DNA of 9,263 nucleotides, from contig JAGQJJ010000102.1 of assembly GCA_020430675.1 (NCBI GenBank), forward strand, positions 1 through 9,263, read 5' to 3'. This document shows positions 1-9,263 of this stretch, in pieces. How positions within the stretch are numbered: the stretch's first letter is position 1; each line of letters starts with the position of its first letter. The notes beneath the pieces are model-generated. The model was not told the DNA's origin. It made no database searches and worked only from the letters and a program-made list of their open reading frames with translations. Position numbers and translations under genes: made by a program. The stretch comes from Myxococcales bacterium (GTDB lineage: Bacteria; Myxococcota; Bradymonadia; UBA7976; UBA1532).

Positions 1-314
1 AGATGGGGCGAATGCGACGCACGCCCACCTGCGCGAGCATACGACGTGCCGGCCGCGTCCATCGCCCAGGCAGGGCGCGAGCCAGGGGCGGCATCGCAAG
101 CCGGGCCGGGCGCCGCCGGAGGTCCGCTGCGACCGACGCGGCCAGGCGCCCCGGACCTGCGCAGCCCGGCGGAGAGGTCGAACCGAAACGACGGCCGCTG
201 CGGCGGCACGACTCGGTGCCTTTCGACCGTCTCCTGGGCGTCCCTCAACCACGGAAGGCCCGTCGAGAATCGGGGGGGGGCCGCTGCGCACGTCCGCGGC
301 CCCCGCAGCCGGGG
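1..314. other. Left-edge stretch with no supportable gene
   Basis: No coding region here shows family motifs. All minus-strand frames are open over about the first 240 bases because the DNA is so GC-rich, so openness means little. A minus-strand ATG at 94 or 40 could begin a gene running off the left edge, but there is too little sequence to judge. A plus-strand frame open from position 1 runs into the antisense of the VioB-like gene and has an Arg/Gly/Pro-rich, shadow-like composition. The only structure seen is the hairpin at 276-304. Confidence 0.5.
276..304 (-). terminator. GC-rich hairpin after the operon, possible terminator
   Basis: A perfect 9-bp inverted repeat (GGGGGCCGC / GCGGCCCCC, arms 276-284 and 296-304, 11-nt loop) begins about 10 nt past the TGA of the last minus-strand gene. 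Its position fits transcript termination or 3'-end protection. It has no U-tract; on the minus strand it is followed by more C, so it is not a canonical intrinsic terminator. A run of nine G (272-280 on the plus strand) forms part of one arm. Confidence 0.45.
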
Positions 315-2495
315 TCAGACGCGCTTCTGGAGGCCGCGGGGCTTCGTACGCGGGCCGCCCGAGAGCCAGGCATCCCACAGCTCGAGCATGCGGCGCTGGC
401 CGGCGCTGAGGCAGCGGTTGACCGGCATATAGCGGCTGCGCTCGAACTCGGCCGGGTCGGTGACCTCCATGATCGGGCCGCGCCACGAGCGGAAGACCAG
501 CGGGTTGCGCAGGAAGCCCATGACCGGGAAGAGCCGGGCCCAGGTCTCGAAGACCTCCAGGTAGATGCGCGCGTCGACCTGGGCCGAGTCGGGGCCGGTG
601 GCGAGCCACTGTTCGAAGGCGATGGCCATCTGGTCGTGGAAGGGCAGTACGCGCACGACGGTGTAGGGCACGTCGACCACTTCGGTGCCGCCGATGCTCT
701 CGGCGAGCGTGGGCACGGCGGCGTCGGGCGGCAGGGCCAGCAGCGCCAGGTTGGGGAAGCCCGGCATGATGCCGTTGACCGCCAATTGCGCCTCGGCGTG
801 GGCGCTCAGGGCGGGCACGACGCGCACCGAGATCGTGCCACGGCCCAGGTCGACCGGGTGCAGGGCCGGGTTGGCGATGAGATGGGCCATCGGCGCGCCG
901 CCCTCACCGCCCGAGCGCGTCCAGCCGGCGTCGTATTGCGCGACGACAAGCTGCGTGCCCGGCGCCGGGGCGCGGCCGCGGTGCTGCACGCGCACATCGA
1001 GCAGGCTGGGCGGGCGCGCAAACTGGCCGGTGCCCGGCTGCTCGACATAGACGCCGCGATCGTCGGTGCGCGCGGTGAAGGCCTGCTCGTTGAGGCCGAT
1101 CTGCGGCTTGCGGGCGTCGGCGAAGAGCGTGAGCTGCAAGTCGCCGCCGAACCAGGTCGACGCGGACAGGACGCCGGGCGCGAGCGGCACGTCGATGACG
1201 CCCGCCGATCGGAGCAGCGCGTCGCGGCCGTACGCATCGGCCGGCAGCGTGGCGATCTTGTGCGTGGTGCCGTCGTCGCCGACCAACCGCACGCCGATCG
1301 CGCCGTAATTTGCGATGGGGCCGCCGAGCTGAAGCTTGGGGAAGGTGACCATCGTGTCGAGCGAGAGCCGCCGCACGTCGTCGCCTTCGATCGCCGCTTC
1401 GACGAGCATCGGGCCCAGCGGCAGCGCGTCGGTGCCTTTGGGCAGCTTCTTCGGCGCCACCGCGATGGGCTGCTGGCCGGTCAGCGCCGCGCCCGCGATG
1501 AGCAGGCGGCCCTCGGGCTCGCTCTGCAGCTCGCCGTGGCGCCAGGTGCCAATCCAGCCGATGGCGCGGCTGTAGGCGCGGTTGATCGGCGGCGGCGGCG
1601 CGTCGACCCGCTTCCCGGCGTCGAAGGCGGCCTTCTCGTCCGCGTACTGCGCATACAGATCGGCCATCAGCTTCATGCGGCCGCTGAGGCGCTCTGCCGG
1701 CGTGCCGCCGACGGCGCGGAAGACGTCGCCGTTGAAGTACAGCGTCTCGAAGGCCGAGAAGCGCACCATCAACCCCGCGACCTCGGGCTCGGCCAGCGCG
1801 GCGTGAAGGGCGGCGGTCACCTTGTCATCGGGGCCGCCATGGAATTGCAAGTCCTCGCGCGGCAAACAGAATTGCCAGACGGCGATCATGTTGCCGGCGA
1901 TGATGAGCTGCTGGTCGAGGTTGTAGTTGTTCTGCAGATTCGGGAAGCGCGTGCACATGCGGCGGCTGATGGCGCCGTTGAAGCCGACGCCGGCCGCTTC
2001 GCTGCCGACCTGCAGGCGATCGGCAAAGAGCTGGGTGCTCCAGAAGCAGGCCGGGTTGATGTCGCACATCTTGGCCTGCACGACCGGGCCCGGGTTCACC
2101 GCGACCTGCGCCGCGCCCCAGGCGCCGCCGAGCGGCTGCCATGCGCCGGTGCGATCGGTCCAGCCGGTGACCGTGGTGCCGCCGGCGGGCCGGTCGAAGA
2201 CCTTGCCGTCTTCGATCTGCGGCCATTCGGGGCTGACAAAGCCCCAGATCATGTCGCCGTAGTAGTTCCATTCGGCGGGCGGCAGATACTCGTCGGCCGA
2301 GGGGTCGTAGGTGGTGGTGATGGCCCATTTGGCGAACTGCTGCGGCGAGTAGACACCCTGTTCGTAGAGGTAGGGCGCGTTCAGCCGCACGTTGGCCGCG
2401 TCGTAGGTGGGCAGGTTGTCGTTGTTGTTGAACGTCGACGGGTTCCAGCTGGCGTGGCCGGCGAAGTAGAGGCGGGGCAGGGCGATGAGGCTCAT
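315..2495 (-). CDS. VioB/RebD N-terminal-half protein (split imine dimer synthase, subunit lacking the ferritin-like domain)
   Basis: This 726-residue protein reads like the N-terminal half of VioB, the enzyme that couples two indole-3-pyruvate imines in violacein synthesis. The shared landmarks, compared with VioB from memory, are: the start MSLIALPRLYFAGHASWN (VioB: MSILDFPRIHFRG); W207-QFCLPREDLQFHGGPDD followed by a helix and EVAGLMVRF; TWRHGELQSEPEGRLL around 317-332 (VioB: LWRRGELASYPAGRLL); and YMPVNRCLSAGQRRML near 689-704, matching the VioB segment just before its ferritin-like domain. The protein ends about 20 residues later, so the second half of VioB is absent here and is encoded by the gene immediately upstream. 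There is no signal peptide, so it is probably cytoplasmic. The ATG overlaps the upstream TGA (ATGA), with GGAG at 2503-2506 as ribosome binding site. Homology is clear; substrate and product are unknown because no partner pathway genes are present. Confidence 0.85.
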   Translation of the reverse strand: MSLIALPRLYFAGHASWNPSTFNNNDNLPTYDAANVRLNAPYLYEQGVYSPQQFAKWAITTTYDPSADEYLPPAEWNYYGDMIWGFVSPEWPQIEDGKVFDRPAGGTTVTGWTDRTGAWQPLGGAWGAAQVAVNPGPVVQAKMCDINPACFWSTQLFADRLQVGSEAAGVGFNGAISRRMCTRFPNLQNNYNLDQQLIIAGNMIAVWQFCLPREDLQFHGGPDDKVTAALHAALAEPEVAGLMVRFSAFETLYFNGDVFRAVGGTPAERLSGRMKLMADLYAQYADEKAAFDAGKRVDAPPPPINRAYSRAIGWIGTWRHGELQSEPEGRLLIAGAALTGQQPIAVAPKKLPKGTDALPLGPMLVEAAIEGDDVRRLSLDTMVTFPKLQLGGPIANYGAIGVRLVGDDGTTHKIATLPADAYGRDALLRSAGVIDVPLAPGVLSASTWFGGDLQLTLFADARKPQIGLNEQAFTARTDDRGVYVEQPGTGQFARPPSLLDVRVQHRGRAPAPGTQLVVAQYDAGWTRSGGEGGAPMAHLIANPALHPVDLGRGTISVRVVPALSAHAEAQLAVNGIMPGFPNLALLALPPDAAVPTLAESIGGTEVVDVPYTVVRVLPFHDQMAIAFEQWLATGPDSAQVDARIYLEVFETWARLFPVMGFLRNPLVFRSWRGPIMEVTDPAEFERSRYMPVNRCLSAGQRRMLELWDAWLSGGPRTKPRGLQKRV

Positions 2496-3460
2496 GACAG
2501 CGCTCCGTTCGGGCGGTCGGCGGCCGCGACATAGGCAAACGTGGGGCCGGCGAGGCGGTCGGTGCCGGGGATGGGCCCCTGCGCGCGCAGCACCGCAGCG
2601 AGGTGGGGCAGGGCCTCCATCGCCTGCGTCGAAGCGCCGTAGACCCCGGGCGAGGCCGAGCAGACGGTGTCTTGCAGGGCATCGAGCAGCGCGCTGTAGG
2701 CGCTGTTGAACGCCAGGTTGGCCGCGAGCTGGGCCTTGGTATAGGCGCCGAGGTGGCCGTGCGGGTCGTCGACCACCGGCCAGACATCGCGCGCCAGGTC
2801 GATCTGGCCCGTCGTCAGCAGCGTCTGCACCTGCAGGAACTTGTAGTAATGGGCCAGCTCGTGGTCGCCGTCATCGTCAGCTTGGGTGCTGCCTTCGCCC
2901 TGCTGCTGAATCTGGTCGATCGCCGCCACCGCATCGGCGTGGCTGGCGACGCGGAACAGGACGCCGCCGCCGGGATTGTCGCGCTTGGGAAGCTGTGAAT
3001 CGGGCGTGTAGGCGCCGTCGCGCACCGGCAGCATGCGCTTGAGCTCGTCGTAGAACTCGCCGATGGTCGACCAGCCCTTGACCGTGCGGCGCGCGTCCTG
3101 CCTTGGCAGCTCGATGTCGAGGAAGGTCTGGATGGCATCGGCGCCAAAGGGCCGCAGCACGACGCGGAACTCGTTGACCCGGTTGGAGTGGCCCGGCAGG
3201 TTCAGCGGCTGGCTGAAGTCGGGCACAAACTCGGGATCATTGATCGCCGTCTTGTGGCCCAGCGCGCGCGTCACGTTGGCGACGAGCGCCATGTGCAGCA
3301 TCTCTTCATAGGCGACCGACGCGATCAGACGCATGGCCTGCCGCGCCGGCGCGCTGTTGTTGCGCAGCGTCCACGCGGTGTACAGATAGGTCGGCAGCGT
3401 CGACAACTCGATGGTCATCGCCGTGTGCAGCCGACGTACGAGGCTCGGTTTCTGGAGCAT
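2492..3460 (-). CDS. VioB/RebD-type ferritin-like domain protein (iminophenyl-pyruvate dimer synthase domain)
   Basis: This 322-residue protein corresponds to the C-terminal half of VioB (Pfam Ferritin-like, iminophenyl-pyruvate dimer synthase). Helix 1 carries E18 in MTIELSTLPTYLYTAW (VioB: VDLELSVMLQYLYAAY). Helix 2 carries E53-x-x-H56 in YEEMLHM. The family signature QQGEGS (GEG at 188-190) is followed by HELAHYYKF with E201-x-x-H204, and the C-terminus has AGPTFAY. These Glu and His residues are the likely metal ligands of a four-helix ferritin-like fold. The ATG at 3460 is chosen because homology begins at once and GGGGGG (3467-3472) lies 6 nt upstream; extending further gives Arg/Pro/Ala-rich antisense-like sequence. 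There is no signal peptide. It follows the phosphatase gene by 64 nt and overlaps the N-half gene by 4 nt, which suggests translational coupling and a two-subunit enzyme. Catalysis could be imine coupling or another oxidation; the sequence does not decide. Confidence 0.87.
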   Translation of the reverse strand: MLQKPSLVRRLHTAMTIELSTLPTYLYTAWTLRNNSAPARQAMRLIASVAYEEMLHMALVANVTRALGHKTAINDPEFVPDFSQPLNLPGHSNRVNEFRVVLRPFGADAIQTFLDIELPRQDARRTVKGWSTIGEFYDELKRMLPVRDGAYTPDSQLPKRDNPGGGVLFRVASHADAVAAIDQIQQQGEGSTQADDDGDHELAHYYKFLQVQTLLTTGQIDLARDVWPVVDDPHGHLGAYTKAQLAANLAFNSAYSALLDALQDTVCSASPGVYGASTQAMEALPHLAAVLRAQGPIPGTDRLAGPTFAYVAAADRPNGALS

Positions 3461-3524
3461 GCGCTTCCCCCCTTGGCTTGTGGCCCTGGCTCGCGCGCGA
3501 GCATCGCACGGCCTGCTGAGGGGA
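3461..3524 (-). other. Short intra-operon gap with a 14-bp palindrome
   Basis: These 64 nt separate the phosphatase stop from the ferritin-like start. They hold the ribosome binding site of the downstream gene (GGGGGG, 3467-3472) and a perfect 14-bp palindrome, GCTCGCGCGCGAGC (3489-3502), which could fold as a 5-bp stem with a CGCG loop. No U-tract follows, so read-through into the VioB-like pair is likely. The palindrome may be a chance product of the GC-rich background. Confidence 0.4.
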
Positions 3525-5639
3525 TCACTCGATATTGAGGTCGCGCGCCGTGAAGCTGGGGTGGGTGATCTGCAAGCGGGCGGGCGGCGCGGCGGGATCG
3601 ATGGCAAGGCGGGCGCGGCCTTCGGCGTCGGTCTGCACCGGCGCGCAGCCTTCGCAGGTGACGCGCGCGTCGGCGACCGGCAGGCCCTCGCCATGCGCGG
3701 TCACGGTGACCGCCAGCGCGTCGCCCTCATCGACGACGGCGGCGTCGAGCGTGGCCAGCCAGGCGGTGCCGGCGCCCAGCGCGCGCAGCTTCACGCCACT
3801 GGCGCGCAGGGTCGCGGCGTGGGTGGCGGTGCGGCGTGGGTCCATCAGCTCCATGCCATGATCGCTGACCAGCACGAACATCGTGTCATCGAGCACGCCC
3901 CGCGCGGCATAGAGCGCGCGAATGGCGGCGATGCGGCCATCGAGCGTCTGCAGCGCCTCGCGCAGCCGCGGGCTGTGCGGGCCGAACCCTTCGCCGGCGC
4001 CGTCGGTGGCCAGAAACGAGAGCTGCAGGAGCGTGGGCACCGGCTTGCCGCGGTCGCCGAGCAGCGTCGAGACCATGATGCCGCCCAGCGCGTCGATGCG
4101 CTCGTAGTCTTCGACGCCCGCCTTGTGCACCCCGAAGTGATCGAGCGTCGTGTAATCGGCGCCGCCGATGGCGATCTCATTGAGCACCGCCACGAAGGCA
4201 TCGGGCCCCAGCGCGCGGTGGGTCGCCTGCGCCAGCGTCTCGGCGTCGCCGCTGAGCAGCCGGTCGTACAGCGCCCAGAAGCGCGCCGGCTCGGCGAAGA
4301 ACGAGGGCAGGTCGGTGAGCACCTGGAACGGGTTGATCATCGCCGCTTCGGCCCGGCCCCAGAATGCGTTGTCGACCACGCCGTGATGCCCGGGCCACGC
4401 GCCGGTGCCTGCGGTGGTGTGGCCGCCGGCCGAGATCGAGGGGAAGCCGACGACCGCGCCGTGCCGGAAGACCGCGCCCTCGTGGGCCAGCGTGCGGAAC
4501 GTGGGCAGGTCGACGGGCGGGGCGTCGTCGAGCATCAGGTGGTTCAACTCGGTGGCTTGCAGGCCGTCGAACAGGATGAGCACCACATGCTCGGGGCGCG
4601 CGCATGGGTCGGGATCGAGCGCGTCCCAGCGCGGCCAGCCGTCCTGGCGCAACAGGTAGAGGCCGTCGTCGTAGCGGCCGTCGGGGCCCAGGCCGCCGGT
4701 GGTGGGCGCGCCGAGCGCCGCGAGCACGGTGGGCGCGGCGTCGACGAGTCGGGCGGGCGCGTCGATCACGGCGCCGGCCCGGGCACCGCGGCCCGAGACG
4801 ACAAAGGTCGCCTGTGATTGCAGGACGCCCAGGCTGCCATGGCTGCCGACACCGCCATTGGCCCAGGGCCAGACGCCGGCGGCGATGTCGGGCGCGTCGG
4901 GGGCCTCGAACAGCGTGCCCAGGCGCACGAGGGGGTCGGGCCAGGACTGTGATTCGTAAGGCAAAAAGCCCACGCGCGGGTCGCCGAGCGGGTAGCCCGC
5001 CGCGGTCAGGTCGAGGTCGGGCGCCGGCTCGAAGGCGGCCAGCATCGCGTCGTAGTCGCCAACCGCATCGGCCGCGGTGTTCGGGAAGATGGCGCTCAGG
5101 TCGCCTTCGAGCACCTGCCACTCGCTGTGATCGAGCGCGTCGACGCGGTTGAAGACCACCGACGCCCGTGCCTCGGGCGGGCCGCCGTGCAGCAGGAAGC
5201 GGTCGTTCGCCTGATCGAAGGTGGCGACGAAGTGCACGGTGGGGTCGGCCATCAGCGCGTCGCGCAGGGCCGCCCAGGCGGGCTGCTCGACGGCGTCGAT
5301 GCCGGCCTGCGGCGGAAACGCGCGGGGCAGGGGGGCCACCGGCCGGGGCGGTGTCGGCGGCGGGGCGCTGCAACGAGGCGGCGGCCCGGCGTCGGGCGCG
5401 GCGTCAACCGCGGCATCAACCGCGGCGTCTGCCACCGCCAGATCGGGCAGGGTCAGATCGGGCGCGGCGTCGACCGCCCCGACATCGGGCGCGGCGTCGA
5501 CCGCCGGACCATCGGGCGCTGCGACGTCAATGGCGGGCGCCTCGGCCGTCGCTTCGTCGTCGCAGCCGGTCGCCATCCAGAGCAGCGCCAGCAACGGCGT
5601 GCCCCAACGCGATCCGCAGCCTCTCGCTTGACCCGCCAT
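3525..5639 (-). CDS. Alkaline phosphatase/phosphodiesterase-superfamily lipoprotein, apparently circularly permuted
   Basis: This is a 704-residue predicted lipoprotein. The signal peptide ends LLALLWMATGC, with C26 as acylation site; the lipobox is imperfect, with Ala at -3. A Pro/Ala/Asp linker with VDAAPD repeats runs to about residue 105. Residues ~110-310 look like the end of an alkaline phosphatase fold: G265-S-H267-G, then FVVSGRGARAG and D300-AAPT-VLAALG. Residues ~350-620 then look like its beginning and middle: LILFD358G; FPSIS403AGGH with TGAWPGHHG (S403 the likely nucleophile); D500 and H505 in DHFGVHKAG; and SD593H594GM. H267 is the best candidate for the last metal-binding His, with H607 (ATHAAT) an alternative. 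Residues ~625-704 form an Ig-like or carboxypeptidase-regulatory-like beta domain (GLPVADARVTCEGC). The ATG at 5639 is supported by GAGGGGG 8 nt upstream and by the signal peptide. It probably hydrolyses a phosphate mono- or diester outside the cytoplasm; substrate unknown. It is the first gene of the operon with the VioB-like pair. Confidence 0.82.
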   Translation of the reverse strand: MAGQARGCGSRWGTPLLALLWMATGCDDEATAEAPAIDVAAPDGPAVDAAPDVGAVDAAPDLTLPDLAVADAAVDAAVDAAPDAGPPPRCSAPPPTPPRPVAPLPRAFPPQAGIDAVEQPAWAALRDALMADPTVHFVATFDQANDRFLLHGGPPEARASVVFNRVDALDHSEWQVLEGDLSAIFPNTAADAVGDYDAMLAAFEPAPDLDLTAAGYPLGDPRVGFLPYESQSWPDPLVRLGTLFEAPDAPDIAAGVWPWANGGVGSHGSLGVLQSQATFVVSGRGARAGAVIDAPARLVDAAPTVLAALGAPTTGGLGPDGRYDDGLYLLRQDGWPRWDALDPDPCARPEHVVLILFDGLQATELNHLMLDDAPPVDLPTFRTLAHEGAVFRHGAVVGFPSISAGGHTTAGTGAWPGHHGVVDNAFWGRAEAAMINPFQVLTDLPSFFAEPARFWALYDRLLSGDAETLAQATHRALGPDAFVAVLNEIAIGGADYTTLDHFGVHKAGVEDYERIDALGGIMVSTLLGDRGKPVPTLLQLSFLATDGAGEGFGPHSPRLREALQTLDGRIAAIRALYAARGVLDDTMFVLVSDHGMELMDPRRTATHAATLRASGVKLRALGAGTAWLATLDAAVVDEGDALAVTVTAHGEGLPVADARVTCEGCAPVQTDAEGRARLAIDPAAPPARLQITHPSFTARDLNIE
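5395..5520 (-). repeat. VDAAPD-type linker repeat in the phosphatase lipoprotein
   Basis: This low-complexity coding repeat encodes variants of VDAAPD between the acylated Cys and the folded domain. A near-perfect DNA direct repeat of about 21 nt recurs with a 27-nt (9-codon) period, with copies beginning at 5457 and 5484. Such Asp/Ala/Pro linkers are typical spacers in lipoproteins of Myxococcota-like bacteria. Copy number could vary by slippage without breaking the frame. Confidence 0.65.
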
Positions 5640-5647
5640 GTCGCGCA

Positions 5648-5654
5648 CCCCCTC
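5648..5654 (-). promoter_or_regulatory. Ribosome binding site of the phosphatase lipoprotein
   Basis: GAGGGGG lies 8 nt before the ATG at 5639. It decides this start: the frame stays open far upstream on the minus strand, but only as antisense of the neighbouring gene. Confidence 0.65.
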
Positions 5655-5668
5655 GCTCGACCGCGCGC

Positions 5669-5698
5669 AGGGTAGACACCCGGGGCCGACCGTCGCAA
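5669..5698 (-). promoter_or_regulatory. Candidate promoter of the minus-strand operon
   Basis: TTGCGA (minus strand, 5698-5693) and TACCCT (5674-5669) are separated by 18 nt and could be -35 and -10 boxes of a housekeeping sigma factor in a GC-rich host. Transcription would start near 5662, giving a leader of roughly 23 nt that contains the ribosome binding site. The boxes match consensus only partly (TTGCGA 4 of 6, TACCCT 3 of 6). Confidence 0.33.
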
Positions 5699-5715
5699 GC
5701 GGCGCCGCGCGCCGC
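5699..5715. repeat. Inverted repeat between the two divergent promoter candidates
   Basis: GCGGCGC (5699-5705) and GCGCCGC (5709-5715) form a perfect 7-bp inverted repeat with a 3-nt spacer. It sits between the two candidate -35 boxes, where an operator for a shared regulator could lie. The repeat contains only G and C, so chance is a serious alternative. Confidence 0.3.
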
Positions 5716-5725
5716 GCGAAGGCGG

Positions 5726-5755
5726 TTGCGTCGATCCCGGTGCGCCGGCCAAGAT
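5726..5755 (+). promoter_or_regulatory. Candidate promoter of the Cys/Asp-rich lipoprotein gene
   Basis: TTGCGT (5726-5731) and CAAGAT (5750-5755) are separated by 18 nt, mirroring the candidate on the other strand. The predicted leader is about 22 nt and contains the purine-rich ribosome binding site GAGGAGGGG (5772-5780). Each box matches the consensus in only 3 of 6 positions. Confidence 0.3.
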
Positions 5756-5771
5756 CGGCCCACACGGGGGA

Positions 5772-5780
5772 GAGGAGGGG
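5772..5780 (+). promoter_or_regulatory. Ribosome binding site of the Cys/Asp-rich lipoprotein
   Basis: GAGGAGGGG ends 3 nt before the ATG at 5784, and its AGGAGG core is 5 nt away. It supports this start together with the signal peptide that begins there. Confidence 0.75.
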
Positions 5781-5783
5781 CCG

Positions 5784-8243
5784 ATGGCCCGCGTCTGTGC
5801 GCTGGCTTTGTTCGCCGCGATGTGCCTTGCCTGCGCCGAGAACGCCGCCGCGCCGGGCGGGGTCGACGCCGAGGCCGAGCCGCCCGATTCGATGTTTCTG
5901 CCGCCGGTCGTCGACGCCACCGTCGACCGCGGCACGCTCGCCGGCTTCGGCGCGCCCTGCGAGGACGACGCCGACTGTGCCTCGGGCTACTGCATCGAGG
6001 CGCGCGACGCCGGCCGCCTCTGCACGCAGACTTGCGGCGAGTGCCCGGCCGGCTATGAGTGCGCGCCCATCGGAAATGCCGGACCCGACCGGGTCTTCCT
6101 CTGCGTCACCGACCAGCCCGACCTGTGCAAGCCGTGCGAGCTGGACCGCGAATGCGATGACCCGGCCGACCTGTGCCTGCCCATCGGCCGCCACACATAC
6201 TGCGGCGAGGATTGCAGCGATGACGGCCTGTGCCCTGAGGGCTATCGCTGCGCCGAGATCGACCGCGAAGGCACCCTGCATCACCAGTGCGTGCCCGCCG
6301 ACGACGAAGGCTGCGAGCCGTGCCGCGACCGCGACGAAGACGGCTACGGCGACGGCGGCGACTGCCTGGGGCCCGACTGCGATGACAACGACCCCGACAC
6401 GCGTCCCGGCGCGCCCGAGCGGTGCGACGGCGTGGACAATGACTGCAACGCCCGGGTTGATGATGGCATGCTCACGCCGCCAGATGACGTGGCGTGCCTG
6501 GCCGTGGGCCTGTGCCTCGGCGCCGAGCCGCGCTGCGAGGGCGGCGAGTGGCGGTGCCGGTATCCCGCGGCGTATGAGGCCGATGAGTTGACCTGCGACG
6601 GCGTCGACAACGACTGCGATGGCGCCGTCGACGAGGCGTTCGACCTGACCCGCGATGTGGCCAACTGCGGCGTCTGCAACGCGGTTTGCAGCTATGCTCA
6701 CGCCGAGGCGCAATGCGCCAACGGGCGCTGCCTGCGCGGCCCCTGCGACGAAGGATGGCACGACGCCGACGGCGATCCGGGCACGGGCTGCGAGTACCTG
6801 TGCGCGCCCACCCGGGGCGGCGTCGAAGCCTGCGATCAGGTCGACAACGACTGCGACGGGCGCACCGACGAGGGCCTCGACCGGCCCGAGGTCTGCGACA
6901 ACGCGGACAACGACTGCGATGGCACCGCCGATGAGGGCTTCGATCTGCTCAGCGACGCCAGCAATTGCGGCGCGTGCGGCGCGGTCTGCGACCTGCCGGC
7001 GGCGCGCGCTCGCTGCGACGCCGGGCGCTGCTCGGTGGCCGAGTGCAACGCCGGCTTCTATGACCTCGACGGGCGGGGTGACAACGGCTGCGAGTATGCC
7101 TGCCAGTTCACCCGCGAAGGCATCGAGGTCTGCGATGGCATCGACAATGACTGCGACGGCCGCGTCGACGATGGCATCGACACCTCGGCCGACGTCAACA
7201 ACTGCGGGCGCTGCGGCAATATCTGTGCCGGCCCGGCCCATCGGGCCCTTTCGTGCGTCGATGGCATGTGCCAGGTGGGTGACTGCCTCGATGGCTTCGT
7301 CGACGCCGATGGTGATGGCGGCAATGGCTGCGAGTACGCCTGCCGGCCCGGCAACGGCGGCGTCGAAGCCTGCAACGGCGCCGATGATGACTGCGACCGG
7401 CGCACCGACGAAGGCGTGCTCAACGCCTGCGGCCAGTGCGGGCCGGTGCCGCCCGAGACCTGCAACGGCGTCGACGATGACTGCAATGGCATCGTCGACG
7501 ACCACGGTGTCTGCGGGCCGTACCTGGCCTCGCAGTGCCGCATCTTCCTCGCCTGGGCTGACCGCAGCTCGATGCCGGCCGGCGCGCTGCCGAGCTGGGG
7601 GCCATGCCCGGGCGCCGATCGCTCGGTCGCCGATCCCAACGTGCGGTGCGTGGGTACGCGGCGCGACGGCGCCTTTGCGCGGTTGCCCACCGCGGGCGAC
7701 GTGAACGACGACGACCAGTTTGCGGTGGCGCTGTTCTGCGACGACGCCGCCAATCCCGGGCTCGCGGCCTATATGCAGACCCATTGCGCGGTGTTTCTGA
7801 GCCACGCCGACGTGAACGGCGGCGTCGACAACAGCCCGAGCTGGGGCGATTGCCCGCCAGCGGCCACGGGCGACAACGGGCGGCTGCGCTGCACGTCGTC
7901 AGGCTATGACGGCCAGTTCCGCCGCATCGAGCTGGTGGGCGACGTGAACGCCGACGACCAGCTTGGCATCGCCTGGATCTGCCGCGACGGCGCCGATCCC
8001 GGTCGCGCGGGCGCCATGACCGCCTCGGCGCAGATCTTCCTCGGCTGGGCCGACCGCAACGAAGGCCCGGCAGATGGCTCACCCGCGTGGGGCCCGTGCC
8101 CCGGGCAGCTCTCGGGCGAAGCCAACGGCCAGCGCTGCACCAGCTCGCGCGGCGATGGGCTCTACCACCTGCTGCAGCTCGGCGGCGACGTAAGCGGCGA
8201 CGATCAATTCGGCATCGCGCTGCGCGCTCGCGCGGTGCCGTGA
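5784..8243 (+). CDS. Large Cys/Asp-rich lipoprotein with MopE/TSP3-like repeats and three C-terminal unknown repeats
   Basis: This is an 819-residue exported protein. The signal peptide MARVCALALFAAMCLAC gives C17 as probable acylation site; the lipobox is weak, with Cys at -3. Residues ~59-175 hold two disulfide-rich modules of the form CxxDxDCxSGYC ... CPxGYxC. Residues ~180-575 begin with a TSP3-like DRDEDGYGDG and DCDDNDPDTRPGAPE, then carry seven copies of a C-D-G-x-D-N-D-C-D-G-x-x-D-E-G motif, with first Cys at 214, 271, 350, 371, 450, 530 and 560. Three copies are interleaved with NCGxCxxxC ... CxxGxC ... GCEYxC modules at a spacing of about 79-80 residues. These acidic loops probably bind calcium. 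The Pfam name Cu-binding_MopE comes from a methanotroph copper protein, but no copper role can be read here. Residues ~585-819 are three unrecognised ~82-residue repeats. The role is probably structural or adhesive at the cell surface. It is divergent from the phosphatase operon. Confidence 0.85.
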   Translation: MARVCALALFAAMCLACAENAAAPGGVDAEAEPPDSMFLPPVVDATVDRGTLAGFGAPCEDDADCASGYCIEARDAGRLCTQTCGECPAGYECAPIGNAGPDRVFLCVTDQPDLCKPCELDRECDDPADLCLPIGRHTYCGEDCSDDGLCPEGYRCAEIDREGTLHHQCVPADDEGCEPCRDRDEDGYGDGGDCLGPDCDDNDPDTRPGAPERCDGVDNDCNARVDDGMLTPPDDVACLAVGLCLGAEPRCEGGEWRCRYPAAYEADELTCDGVDNDCDGAVDEAFDLTRDVANCGVCNAVCSYAHAEAQCANGRCLRGPCDEGWHDADGDPGTGCEYLCAPTRGGVEACDQVDNDCDGRTDEGLDRPEVCDNADNDCDGTADEGFDLLSDASNCGACGAVCDLPAARARCDAGRCSVAECNAGFYDLDGRGDNGCEYACQFTREGIEVCDGIDNDCDGRVDDGIDTSADVNNCGRCGNICAGPAHRALSCVDGMCQVGDCLDGFVDADGDGGNGCEYACRPGNGGVEACNGADDDCDRRTDEGVLNACGQCGPVPPETCNGVDDDCNGIVDDHGVCGPYLASQCRIFLAWADRSSMPAGALPSWGPCPGADRSVADPNVRCVGTRRDGAFARLPTAGDVNDDDQFAVALFCDDAANPGLAAYMQTHCAVFLSHADVNGGVDNSPSWGDCPPAATGDNGRLRCTSSGYDGQFRRIELVGDVNADDQLGIAWICRDGADPGRAGAMTASAQIFLGWADRNEGPADGSPAWGPCPGQLSGEANGQRCTSSRGDGLYHLLQLGGDVSGDDQFGIALRARAVP
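6423..7506 (+). repeat. Array of seven MopE-like Asp/Cys motifs
   Basis: Variants of a DNA unit encoding CDGVDNDCDGxxDEG recur at 6423, 6594, 6831, 6894, 7131, 7371 and 7461. Main spacing is about 237-240 nt where a Cys-rich module intervenes, and 63 nt or 90 nt where it does not. Copies 6 and 7 replace DND with DDD. Similarity is clear at DNA level, so copy-number change by recombination is possible. Confidence 0.8.
7536..8243 (+). repeat. Three tandem ~82-residue repeats of unknown type
   Basis: Three consecutive units begin near residues 585, 668 and 749. Each has an IFLxWADR-like start, a WGxCP motif, an RCxxxxxDGxF stretch and an ending GDVNxDDQFGIA (its Gly at 638, 719 and 801). The last unit has GDVSGDDQFGIA, and the protein ends shortly after it. 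Each unit has a conserved Cys pair and an acidic loop resembling a calcium site. I do not recognise a named domain. Confidence 0.75.
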
Positions 8244-8247
8244 CGGT

Positions 8248-9263
8248 TCACTTCGGCGGGCGCACGCGCAGCAACTTGTCGATCGGCGGCGCGTCGACCT
8301 TCGTCTGGCGGCCATCGGGCCAGCGCACCTCGACCGAGAGTGGCTTTGCCCGCCCAAGCCCGAAGTGATGCATCGGGCGCGACTGGCTCGCAAACGAGTC
8401 GCCGGCGATGACCGCCGCCGCCCGCGGGCCTTGATCGGTCCGCAGCGTGATCTGCGCGCCAAAAGGCGCGGCGTGGGCGTCGCCTTCGAGCGCGACGGTG
8501 ATGAAGTGGCCCTCGCTGGCGCCGGTATTGCGCATGACGCGGGCGCTCAGCTCGCCGCGCTCGGCCTCGGCGATGATGAGGTCGATGCGGCCGTCGCCGT
8601 CGAAGTCATCGGCGATGACATTGCGCGCGTCGGCCTCACCGCCCAGGCCGCGCGGGTAGCCGGCTTCGAGGTAGCCCTCGGGCTGGCGAACGAACAGGCG
8701 GTTATGCTCGAAGCCGTTCCATGACACGCCCGACTCGATGTCCTGCGCGAGTCGATCGATGATCGACCGCTGCGCCTCGGGCGCGACGCCGTCGTCGAGA
8801 TAGACATCGTGGCTCCAGTACCGCGTGCACTAATCCTGGGCCGTGCGGCCGCTGATGAAGCCGTTGGCCACGAAGAGGTCGAGATCGCCGTCGTTCTCGG
8901 GATCGAAGGCGGCCACGCCCCAGGCCCAGCCGGCGGCGGCGACCTGCTCGGCCTCGGGCGCCATGGCAAAGCGGCCGTTCGGCTGGCCCAGATAGAGCCG
9001 GTTGCCGAAGGTCATCTCGGTGCGCCAGCGCGTCTGCTCGGCGCGGTCGGGGCGCTGCAAGTCGAGCGCGTTGAGACGCCGGACCGTGGTCGAGTTCATG
9101 CCCGTGGCAAAAACATCGAGGCGGCCGTCGCCGTTGAAGTCGCCGAGGGCATGCGACATGCCAAACAGCGTTGGGTTGTCGAAGGCATCGGCGGCGCGCG
9201 TGAAGTGGCCGTGGCCGTCGTTGCGATGCAGCTCGACGCCGGCGAAGTCATTGACCGTCAAGA
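8248..9263 (-). pseudogene. CRTAC1-family FG-GAP / ASPIC-UnbV protein, interrupted by an in-frame TAG and cut by the right edge
   Basis: One reading frame spans this region on the minus strand and enters from beyond the window's right edge, so the N-terminus is missing. It encodes FG-GAP/VCBS-type calcium loops: DFNGDGRLDVF, DPENDGDLDLFVANG and DFDGDGRIDLII. An ASPIC/UnbV-type C-terminus follows (FGAQITLRTDQG, PMHHFGLGRAKPLSVEVRWPDGRQ). The family usually is a secreted beta-propeller protein of unclear function. A single TAG at 8830-8832 interrupts the frame between GRTAQD and CTRYWSHDVYLDDG; both sides are in the same frame and belong to one protein. From memory, relatives often have Tyr before the Cys here, so TAC or TAT to TAG is the likely change. 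The 193 codons after the stop show no other damage, suggesting a recent nonsense mutation, a sequence error or read-through. The stop at 8248 lies 4 nt from the end of the convergent plus-strand gene. Confidence 0.8.
8830..8832 (-). other. In-frame amber codon in the CRTAC1-type gene
   Basis: The minus-strand reading is GCC CAG GAT TAG TGC ACG CGG TAC TGG. The stop is exactly 35 codons upstream of the GTG at 8727, in the same frame, confirming a single-base nonsense change and not a frameshift. The four genes complete at their 3' end in this window all terminate with TGA. Confidence 0.85.

Follow-up and report, generated by a model that had tools for sequence, protein, structure and literature searches.

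Does a gene pair that codes for the two halves of a VioB-like protein separately, and in reversed order, represent a damaged enzyme, two independent proteins, or a two-subunit enzyme? The question is raised by positions 1 to 9,263 of the contig JAGQJJ010000102.1 of Myxococcales bacterium, a stretch of 9,263 nucleotides (nt) referred to here as the window. Two adjacent genes on its minus strand probably encode two subunits of a VioB-like oxidative enzyme, the ferritin-like subunit being coded first. The gene pair and its signals are as follows.

2492..3460, minus strand: gene 1, ferritin-like protein of 322 amino acids (aa), corresponding to the C-terminal half of VioB-like proteins (PF12902, TIGR04492, conservation)
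315..2495, minus strand: gene 2, protein of 726 aa that corresponds to the N-terminal half of VioB-like proteins, hereafter N-half (TIGR04492, profile-profile comparison, AlphaFold2)
2492..2495, minus strand: ATGA start/stop overlap of 4 nt between gene 1 and gene 2 (window sequence)
2503..2506, minus strand: GGAG within gene 1, 7 bases 5' of the gene 2 ATG, a putative Shine-Dalgarno-like signal (junction sequence)
3467..3472, minus strand: G-rich run 5' of the gene 1 ATG, likewise a putative Shine-Dalgarno-like signal (sequence)

The junction of the two genes reads ACGGAGCGCTGTCATGAGC, and gene 2 starts inside the stop of gene 1. Coordinates, strand, lengths and the ATGA overlap are exactly those given in a first-pass annotation, which had described the pair as VioB split into two overlapping genes. 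Both frames are intact and have their own start codons, and the G+C content of third codon positions (GC3) is 0.93 and 0.89, respectively. Translational coupling, proposed in the same annotation, is likely in view of the overlap. The gene 2 product has 14 relatives besides itself at E ≤ 0.001 among 7996 candidates scored (aligned as A1). Opposite the N-half gene, an open frame of 843 aa is present on the plus strand (window 3-2534), and it could be argued that this frame is the real gene and the N-half frame its shadow. We give this hardly any credence, as the conserved protein family lies on the opposite strand in GC-rich DNA, where shadow frames are expected, and the relatives counted above belong to the minus-strand protein (those of the plus-strand frame were not sought). 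The 843-aa frame is itself most likely the shadow.

Homology of the two products to VioB-like proteins

The gene 1 product contains a full-length PF12902 domain (residues 11-211 on model positions 1-219 of 221, E 1.3e-45), with 156.4 bits against a gathering cut-off of 22.3. No Pfam family matched the 726-aa gene 2 product at E ≤ 1. The VioB model TIGR04492 (iminophenyl-pyruvate dimer synthase) matched both proteins in the corresponding segments, gene 2 with residues 304-509 on model positions 260-434 (E 1.3e-6) and gene 1 on model positions 670-836 (E 3.3e-5). These matches score 26.5 and 21.9 bits and fall short of the curated cut-off of 1250 bits; by homology, the pair is thus a gene pair with both halves of VioB, yet not VioB itself, and the identity assigned by the first-pass annotation has to be given up.

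A stronger comparison starts from the natural fused protein P0048 of Symploca sp. SIO1C2 (948 aa), which has 546 relatives at E ≤ 0.001. Among the 120 listed, lengths are 705-1069 aa, all contain PF12902, and 119 cover at least 97% of the query; 34 of the 120, query included, were aligned (A3), and from one other relatives list 24 of 32 proteins, again with the query, were aligned. In profile-profile comparison, residues 1-709 of the gene 2 product align with residues 1-572 of the fused family (probability 99.9%, E 1.8e-35), and the ferritin-like family aligns with the remainder, with an E-value inflated by the partly fused P0043 in its alignment A2. A profile search had been set beforehand as a test of whether the 726-aa protein corresponds to the VioB N-half, and both the TIGR04492 and the profile-profile matches answer it positively. 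The 'ferritin-like proteins' related to P0048 are thus homologous to the window pair end to end, but they are fused, and their N-halves belong to a separate deep group described below.

The cut between the halves lies where it had been placed from the sequence. The N-half ends with the family motif YMPVxRxLSxGxRRxLxLW and a short tail, and in the fused family this motif is followed by the ferritin domain. Other members place the cut on TIGR04492 in the same region, with N-half pieces running up to positions 583-590 and ferritin-like pieces starting from 589-602.

As representatives of RebD/StaD-type chromopyrrolic acid synthases we took two actinomycete proteins (L099 and L100, 680 and 782 bits to TIGR04492), which we presume to be of this kind and call RebD/VioB-type. 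The putative metal ligands of the gene 1 product, E18, E53, H56, E117, E189 and H204, are each present in 52 or 53 of 53 aligned ferritin-like sequences, the two RebD/VioB-type proteins included. Only one row departs from this; it is cut short by a contig end, is gapped at E18, E53 and H56, and has a different residue at E189. Position E201 is variable. In the N-half, M1 is common to all 39 sequences outside the group of fused proteins and VioB-order pairs. Both N-half groups and the two RebD/VioB-type proteins keep, among others, R8, G13, T21, D145, G313 and R330, and likewise G398, E470, M659, M690, P691 and R694. R183, G241, W318, P327, R615 and P618 are shared by the RebD/VioB-type N-halves with the group of the window and not with the fused group. 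The RebD/VioB-type proteins differ from the window in being single chains, with the N-half before the ferritin-like half. The 726-aa protein was modelled by AlphaFold2 with a mean predicted local distance difference test (pLDDT) value of 84.8 and a predicted template modelling (pTM) score of 0.87.

The pair could also be a broken remnant of a fused gene, either a pseudogene or an artefact of assembly or sequencing. No point in favour of this was found; it is contradicted by the complete conserved ends, the intact frames with their own start codons, the GC3 values, the reversed order and the recurrence of this arrangement in five other loci, and is extremely unlikely. The earlier view that neither half is damaged therefore holds, both in the N-half (M1) and at the ferritin-type positions.

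Distribution, gene order and trees

Relatives of both window proteins were found at 61% identity (P0003 and P0019); the longest contig of each is 12,954 bp, and it is presumably one shared contig. Because of these relatives and of five further ferritin-first pairs, the pairing is not a matter of chance. A scan of species genomes yielded 16 loci with an N-half. In the phylum samples, with at most four candidates scored per genome and misses possible, genomes with an A1 match numbered 1 of 244 in the phylum of Symploca (G003 itself) and 2 of 246 in that of G006 (G006 included). In the phyla of G002 and G001 they numbered 6 of 247 each, two of the former being known already and G001 being one of the latter.

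Outside the fused/VioB-order group, the window and 30 further loci were inspected, each place being counted once. Ferritin-first pairs on one strand occur in six of these 31 loci: the window, L001 from Saprospiraceae, L003 from a Symploca metagenome-assembled genome (MAG), L076 from a Bryobacterales MAG (the genome that also has L010), and L067 and L097, both obtained by sampling the phylum or class to which an actinobacterial MAG belongs. The genes overlap in four of the six, by ATGA in the window, L076 and L067 and by 1 nt (TGATG) in L097, and are separated by 27 nt in L001 and 25 nt in L003. The five other pairs all share order and strand with the window and have N-halves of its group, but their sequences are distant. 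One locus (L068, on a 3.9-kb contig) has a convergent pair, and in the other 24 no ferritin-like gene was present in the fetched stretch, several of which are cut by contig ends.

In the fused/VioB-order group, the N-half gene comes first. Seven such pairs were fetched (L017, L066, L075, L077, L078, L079 and L080), and in each of the eight plasmid records where a single place covers 80% or more of P0048, the annotation gives two genes, so split pairs with this order are common. Two loci (L003 and L069) have fused proteins, and the fused-group N-halves of L062 and L073 had no ferritin-like gene in the fetched stretch. The survey for split pairs suggested by the first-pass annotation thus found them in both orders. 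In the Symploca locus L003, a ferritin-first pair occurs together with an EboF-like gene, EboE, a fused VioB-like protein and a further PF12902 protein of 521 aa; its contig G003:C202 has four PF12902 places in a stretch of about 13 kb.

Trees were computed by a quick method, with support from the Shimodaira-Hasegawa-like approximate likelihood ratio test (SH-aLRT) only. In the N-half tree of 62 rows, a long and fully supported branch parts two deep groups. On one side are all 15 fused rows, all seven VioB-order pairs and two lone N-halves; on the other are the window, the ferritin-first pairs of L001, L003, L067 and L076, and all other N-halves, including most of the lone ones. A later tree with L097, the two RebD/VioB-type proteins and seven of the 15 fused rows, which were also those used for the AU test, kept this branch, with a warning of long branches. 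The fragment P0014 was kept out of the trees, as were the first of the N-half copies of L006 and the N-halves of L009, L014, L015, L059, L065, L070 and L071; L068, L064, P0016 and L011 were dropped before the approximately unbiased (AU) test.

Ferritins of the window, L001 and L003 form a clade apart from fused and VioB-order ferritins (SH-aLRT 95), so the pairs of these three loci were probably inherited together; the N-half tree likewise groups them (SH-aLRT 100). In the ferritin tree the branch of L067 is very long, and the position of L076 is not firm. A single N-half clade of all six ferritin-first pairs was rejected (AU p 1.6e-6); therefore this gene order arose more than once, or it is old and was lost repeatedly. 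The possibility of a separate lineage, raised at the outset, is supported by these groupings.

According to another explanation, a fused ancestor of VioB/RebD type underwent secondary fission and reordering. In its favour, the RebD/VioB-type N-halves reach 69 and 90 bits with the window-clade profile, against 41 and 47 bits with that of the fused group; the lean is slight, because a member of the fused group itself obtains 70.5 bits with the former profile. Reversed order requires more than fission, most loci outside the fused/VioB-order group (24 of 31) have a lone N-half, and the tree does not place the RebD/VioB-type proteins among the ferritin-first pairs, though their join is not firm. 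We consider this origin quite improbable. When the RebD/VioB-type proteins were joined to the fused group, the tree was 4.27 log units better than the free tree and was not rejected (AU p 0.58), so the split may be either ancestral or derived. A simple cut of VioB, as the first-pass description implied, does not agree with the rejection of a single ferritin-first clade, nor with the N-half-bearing genomes lacking PF12902 that are described next.

Partners of the N-half and genes around the pair

PF12902 was searched in 25 N-half-bearing genomes; 9 had a match and 16 had none, many of them MAGs and maybe incomplete. In a control search of 14 known genomes, a match was found only in Caulobacter. 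N-half-bearing genomes outside this search include G371, G431, G490, G1490, G1532 and that of L009/L014, and a ferritin-like domain is known in G371, G490, G1490 and G1532.

Neighbours within 3.5 kb of the N-half were compared in 30 loci. A Kelch-like family adjoins it in six (L008, L012, L015, L016, L064 and L065), and in L011 (10001-13327) an N-half and a Kelch-like protein are naturally fused in one chain of 1108 aa; the label Kelch-like comes from the L016 protein, whose Pfam match reaches 20.4 bits and so stays below the threshold of 50, while the proteins of L008, L012 and L011 have no match. A family with one CxxCH motif per member adjoins the N-half in four loci (L007, L013, L017 and L060). 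A small protein, membrane-bound by its appearance, is near the N-half in seven (L003, L006, L008, L015, L016, L061 and L068), and that of L003 has a weak match to DedA-family models. These associations suggest that the halves are modules, each with its own history, and not pieces of a broken enzyme.

The same observations favour a reading in which the two window proteins are independent and merely share an operon, the N-half being a stand-alone module (binding, scaffold or enzyme) that joins various partners and the ferritin-like protein acting alone on iron, peroxide or a small molecule. Genomes without a PF12902 match, Kelch-like and CxxCH neighbours in place of a ferritin, the L011 fusion and stand-alone PF12902 proteins such as 3hl1 from Caulobacter all fit it. 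It does not explain the recurrent overlap or adjacency with a ferritin gene in both orders, nor the frequent fusion, and we regard it as rather unlikely.

At least two ebo genes were found in seven of 47 fetched loci (L003, L007, L013, L017, L066, L077 and L079); five of the 47 have no N-half and one repeats another. In Aureibacter (L077) and in G941 (L066), EboA-F follow directly after the VioB-order pair. Together with Mycetohabitans (L079), these loci resemble the window in having two separate adjacent genes, but the N-half comes first, it belongs to the fused group, and a full or partial ebo cluster lies downstream, while the window has none. Among the ferritin-first loci, Symploca L003 differs from the window also by its EboE, EboF-like and fused VioB-like genes. 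In L007 of Pseudomonas bharatica CSV86 (1764-12400), the N-half adjoins an ebo-like cluster, with a CxxCH protein gene just before the N-half; the cluster resembles, by description, the Pseudomonas EDB cluster of PMC6282210. According to the same source, the ebo cluster is responsible for excretion of scytonemin intermediates to the periplasm.

One further gene of the window may belong with the pair.

3525..5639, minus strand: alkaline-phosphatase-superfamily protein of 704 aa (PF01663, E 6.6e-28)

This gene is on the same strand, 64 nt upstream of gene 1, and its product has a lipoprotein-like start with a lipobox judged by eye; it is possibly an operon member with genes 1 and 2. An EboF-like identity was considered and rejected: two EboF-like proteins share 52% identity between themselves, but 22-23% (30-34 bits) with this one. 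Farther away, a cysteine-rich protein of 819 aa is encoded at 5784-8243 on the plus strand; the MopE copper-binding motif model PF11617 matches it in seven stretches, and its match to the MXAN_6577-like family is below threshold. An FG-GAP-type protein lies at 8248-9261 on the minus strand (PF13517 in the piece 8830-9261); an in-frame TAG interrupts it at 8830-8832, between two stretches that both look coding, and may be a nonsense change, a sequencing error or something else.

Proposed function

VioB is described in PMC5577590 as a haem-dependent oxidase which, with the amine oxidase VioA, oxidises L-tryptophan and dimerises the resulting imine. LodA and GoxA are amino acid oxidases according to PMC4417212, where PF12902 genes of the fungus Gymnopus luxurians are shown with lodA-like genes. 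In Mycetohabitans (L079), a gene annotated as LodA/GoxA family cysteine tryptophylquinone (CTQ)-dependent oxidase is about 4.5 kb upstream of the VioB-order pair, with a transposase gene between. Both cases would fit an amino acid oxidase partner by analogy; neither concerns the window.

In the mechanism we propose, the ferritin-like subunit would carry a di-metal site, probably of iron, handling O2 or peroxide. The beta-rich N-half subunit may dock on it and shape the substrate pocket; its C-terminal segment is helical and, in fused proteins, leads into the ferritin domain. Translation of the N-half would be coupled to that of the ferritin-like protein through the overlap, and the subunits would be made together. 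By analogy with VioB/RebD, the reaction may be oxidative coupling of a reactive imine supplied by an amino acid oxidase.

Several results weigh against such an enzyme. The scores with the VioB model are tiny. As 16 of the 25 genomes searched had no PF12902 match, the N-half does not need a ferritin partner everywhere. Both N-half groups keep N23, N24, W76 and G80, whereas the two RebD/VioB-type proteins have other residues there, and therefore the chemistry need not match. No convincing full-length structural match to the N-half model was found in the PDB, so its active site and any haem could not be located, and the structures were predicted for single chains only. No ebo match was found within the 9.3-kb window, and neither a VioA/RebO-type amino acid oxidase nor VioE, the usual partners of VioB, in scans of its four main genes. 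Split or reversed VioB-like pairs and a link with ebo were not described in the open-licence literature examined, which is weak evidence of absence, and neither 'VioB' nor 'ferritin' appears as a word in the body text of the two main ebo papers.

Two subunits of one VioB-like oxidative enzyme nevertheless remain the probable products of the pair. End-to-end homology, the kept ligand positions, the ATGA overlap, a pairing that recurs in distant bacteria, plentiful fusions of the halves and the agreement of the ferritin and N-half trees on the window, L001 and L003 all point to this. The functional two-subunit enzyme of the first-pass annotation is supported indirectly, by overlap, co-occurrence and conserved ligand positions. 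More tentatively, the N-half of VioB and RebD would be an autonomous, unnamed family that pairs or fuses with ferritin-like, CxxCH and Kelch-like partners, VioB/RebD would be one fused outcome of a wider two-component system partly tied to ebo export, and the window operon would code for a dimer-synthase-like enzyme in unfused form, serving a natural product still to be discovered. If the two-subunit reading is true, the halves of a well-known pigment enzyme could be studied as separate proteins, and the division between a half for imine chemistry and a half for metal would become testable. The uncatalogued N-half family would then be a signpost to unknown natural-product clusters in several phyla, some of them beside ebo export genes.

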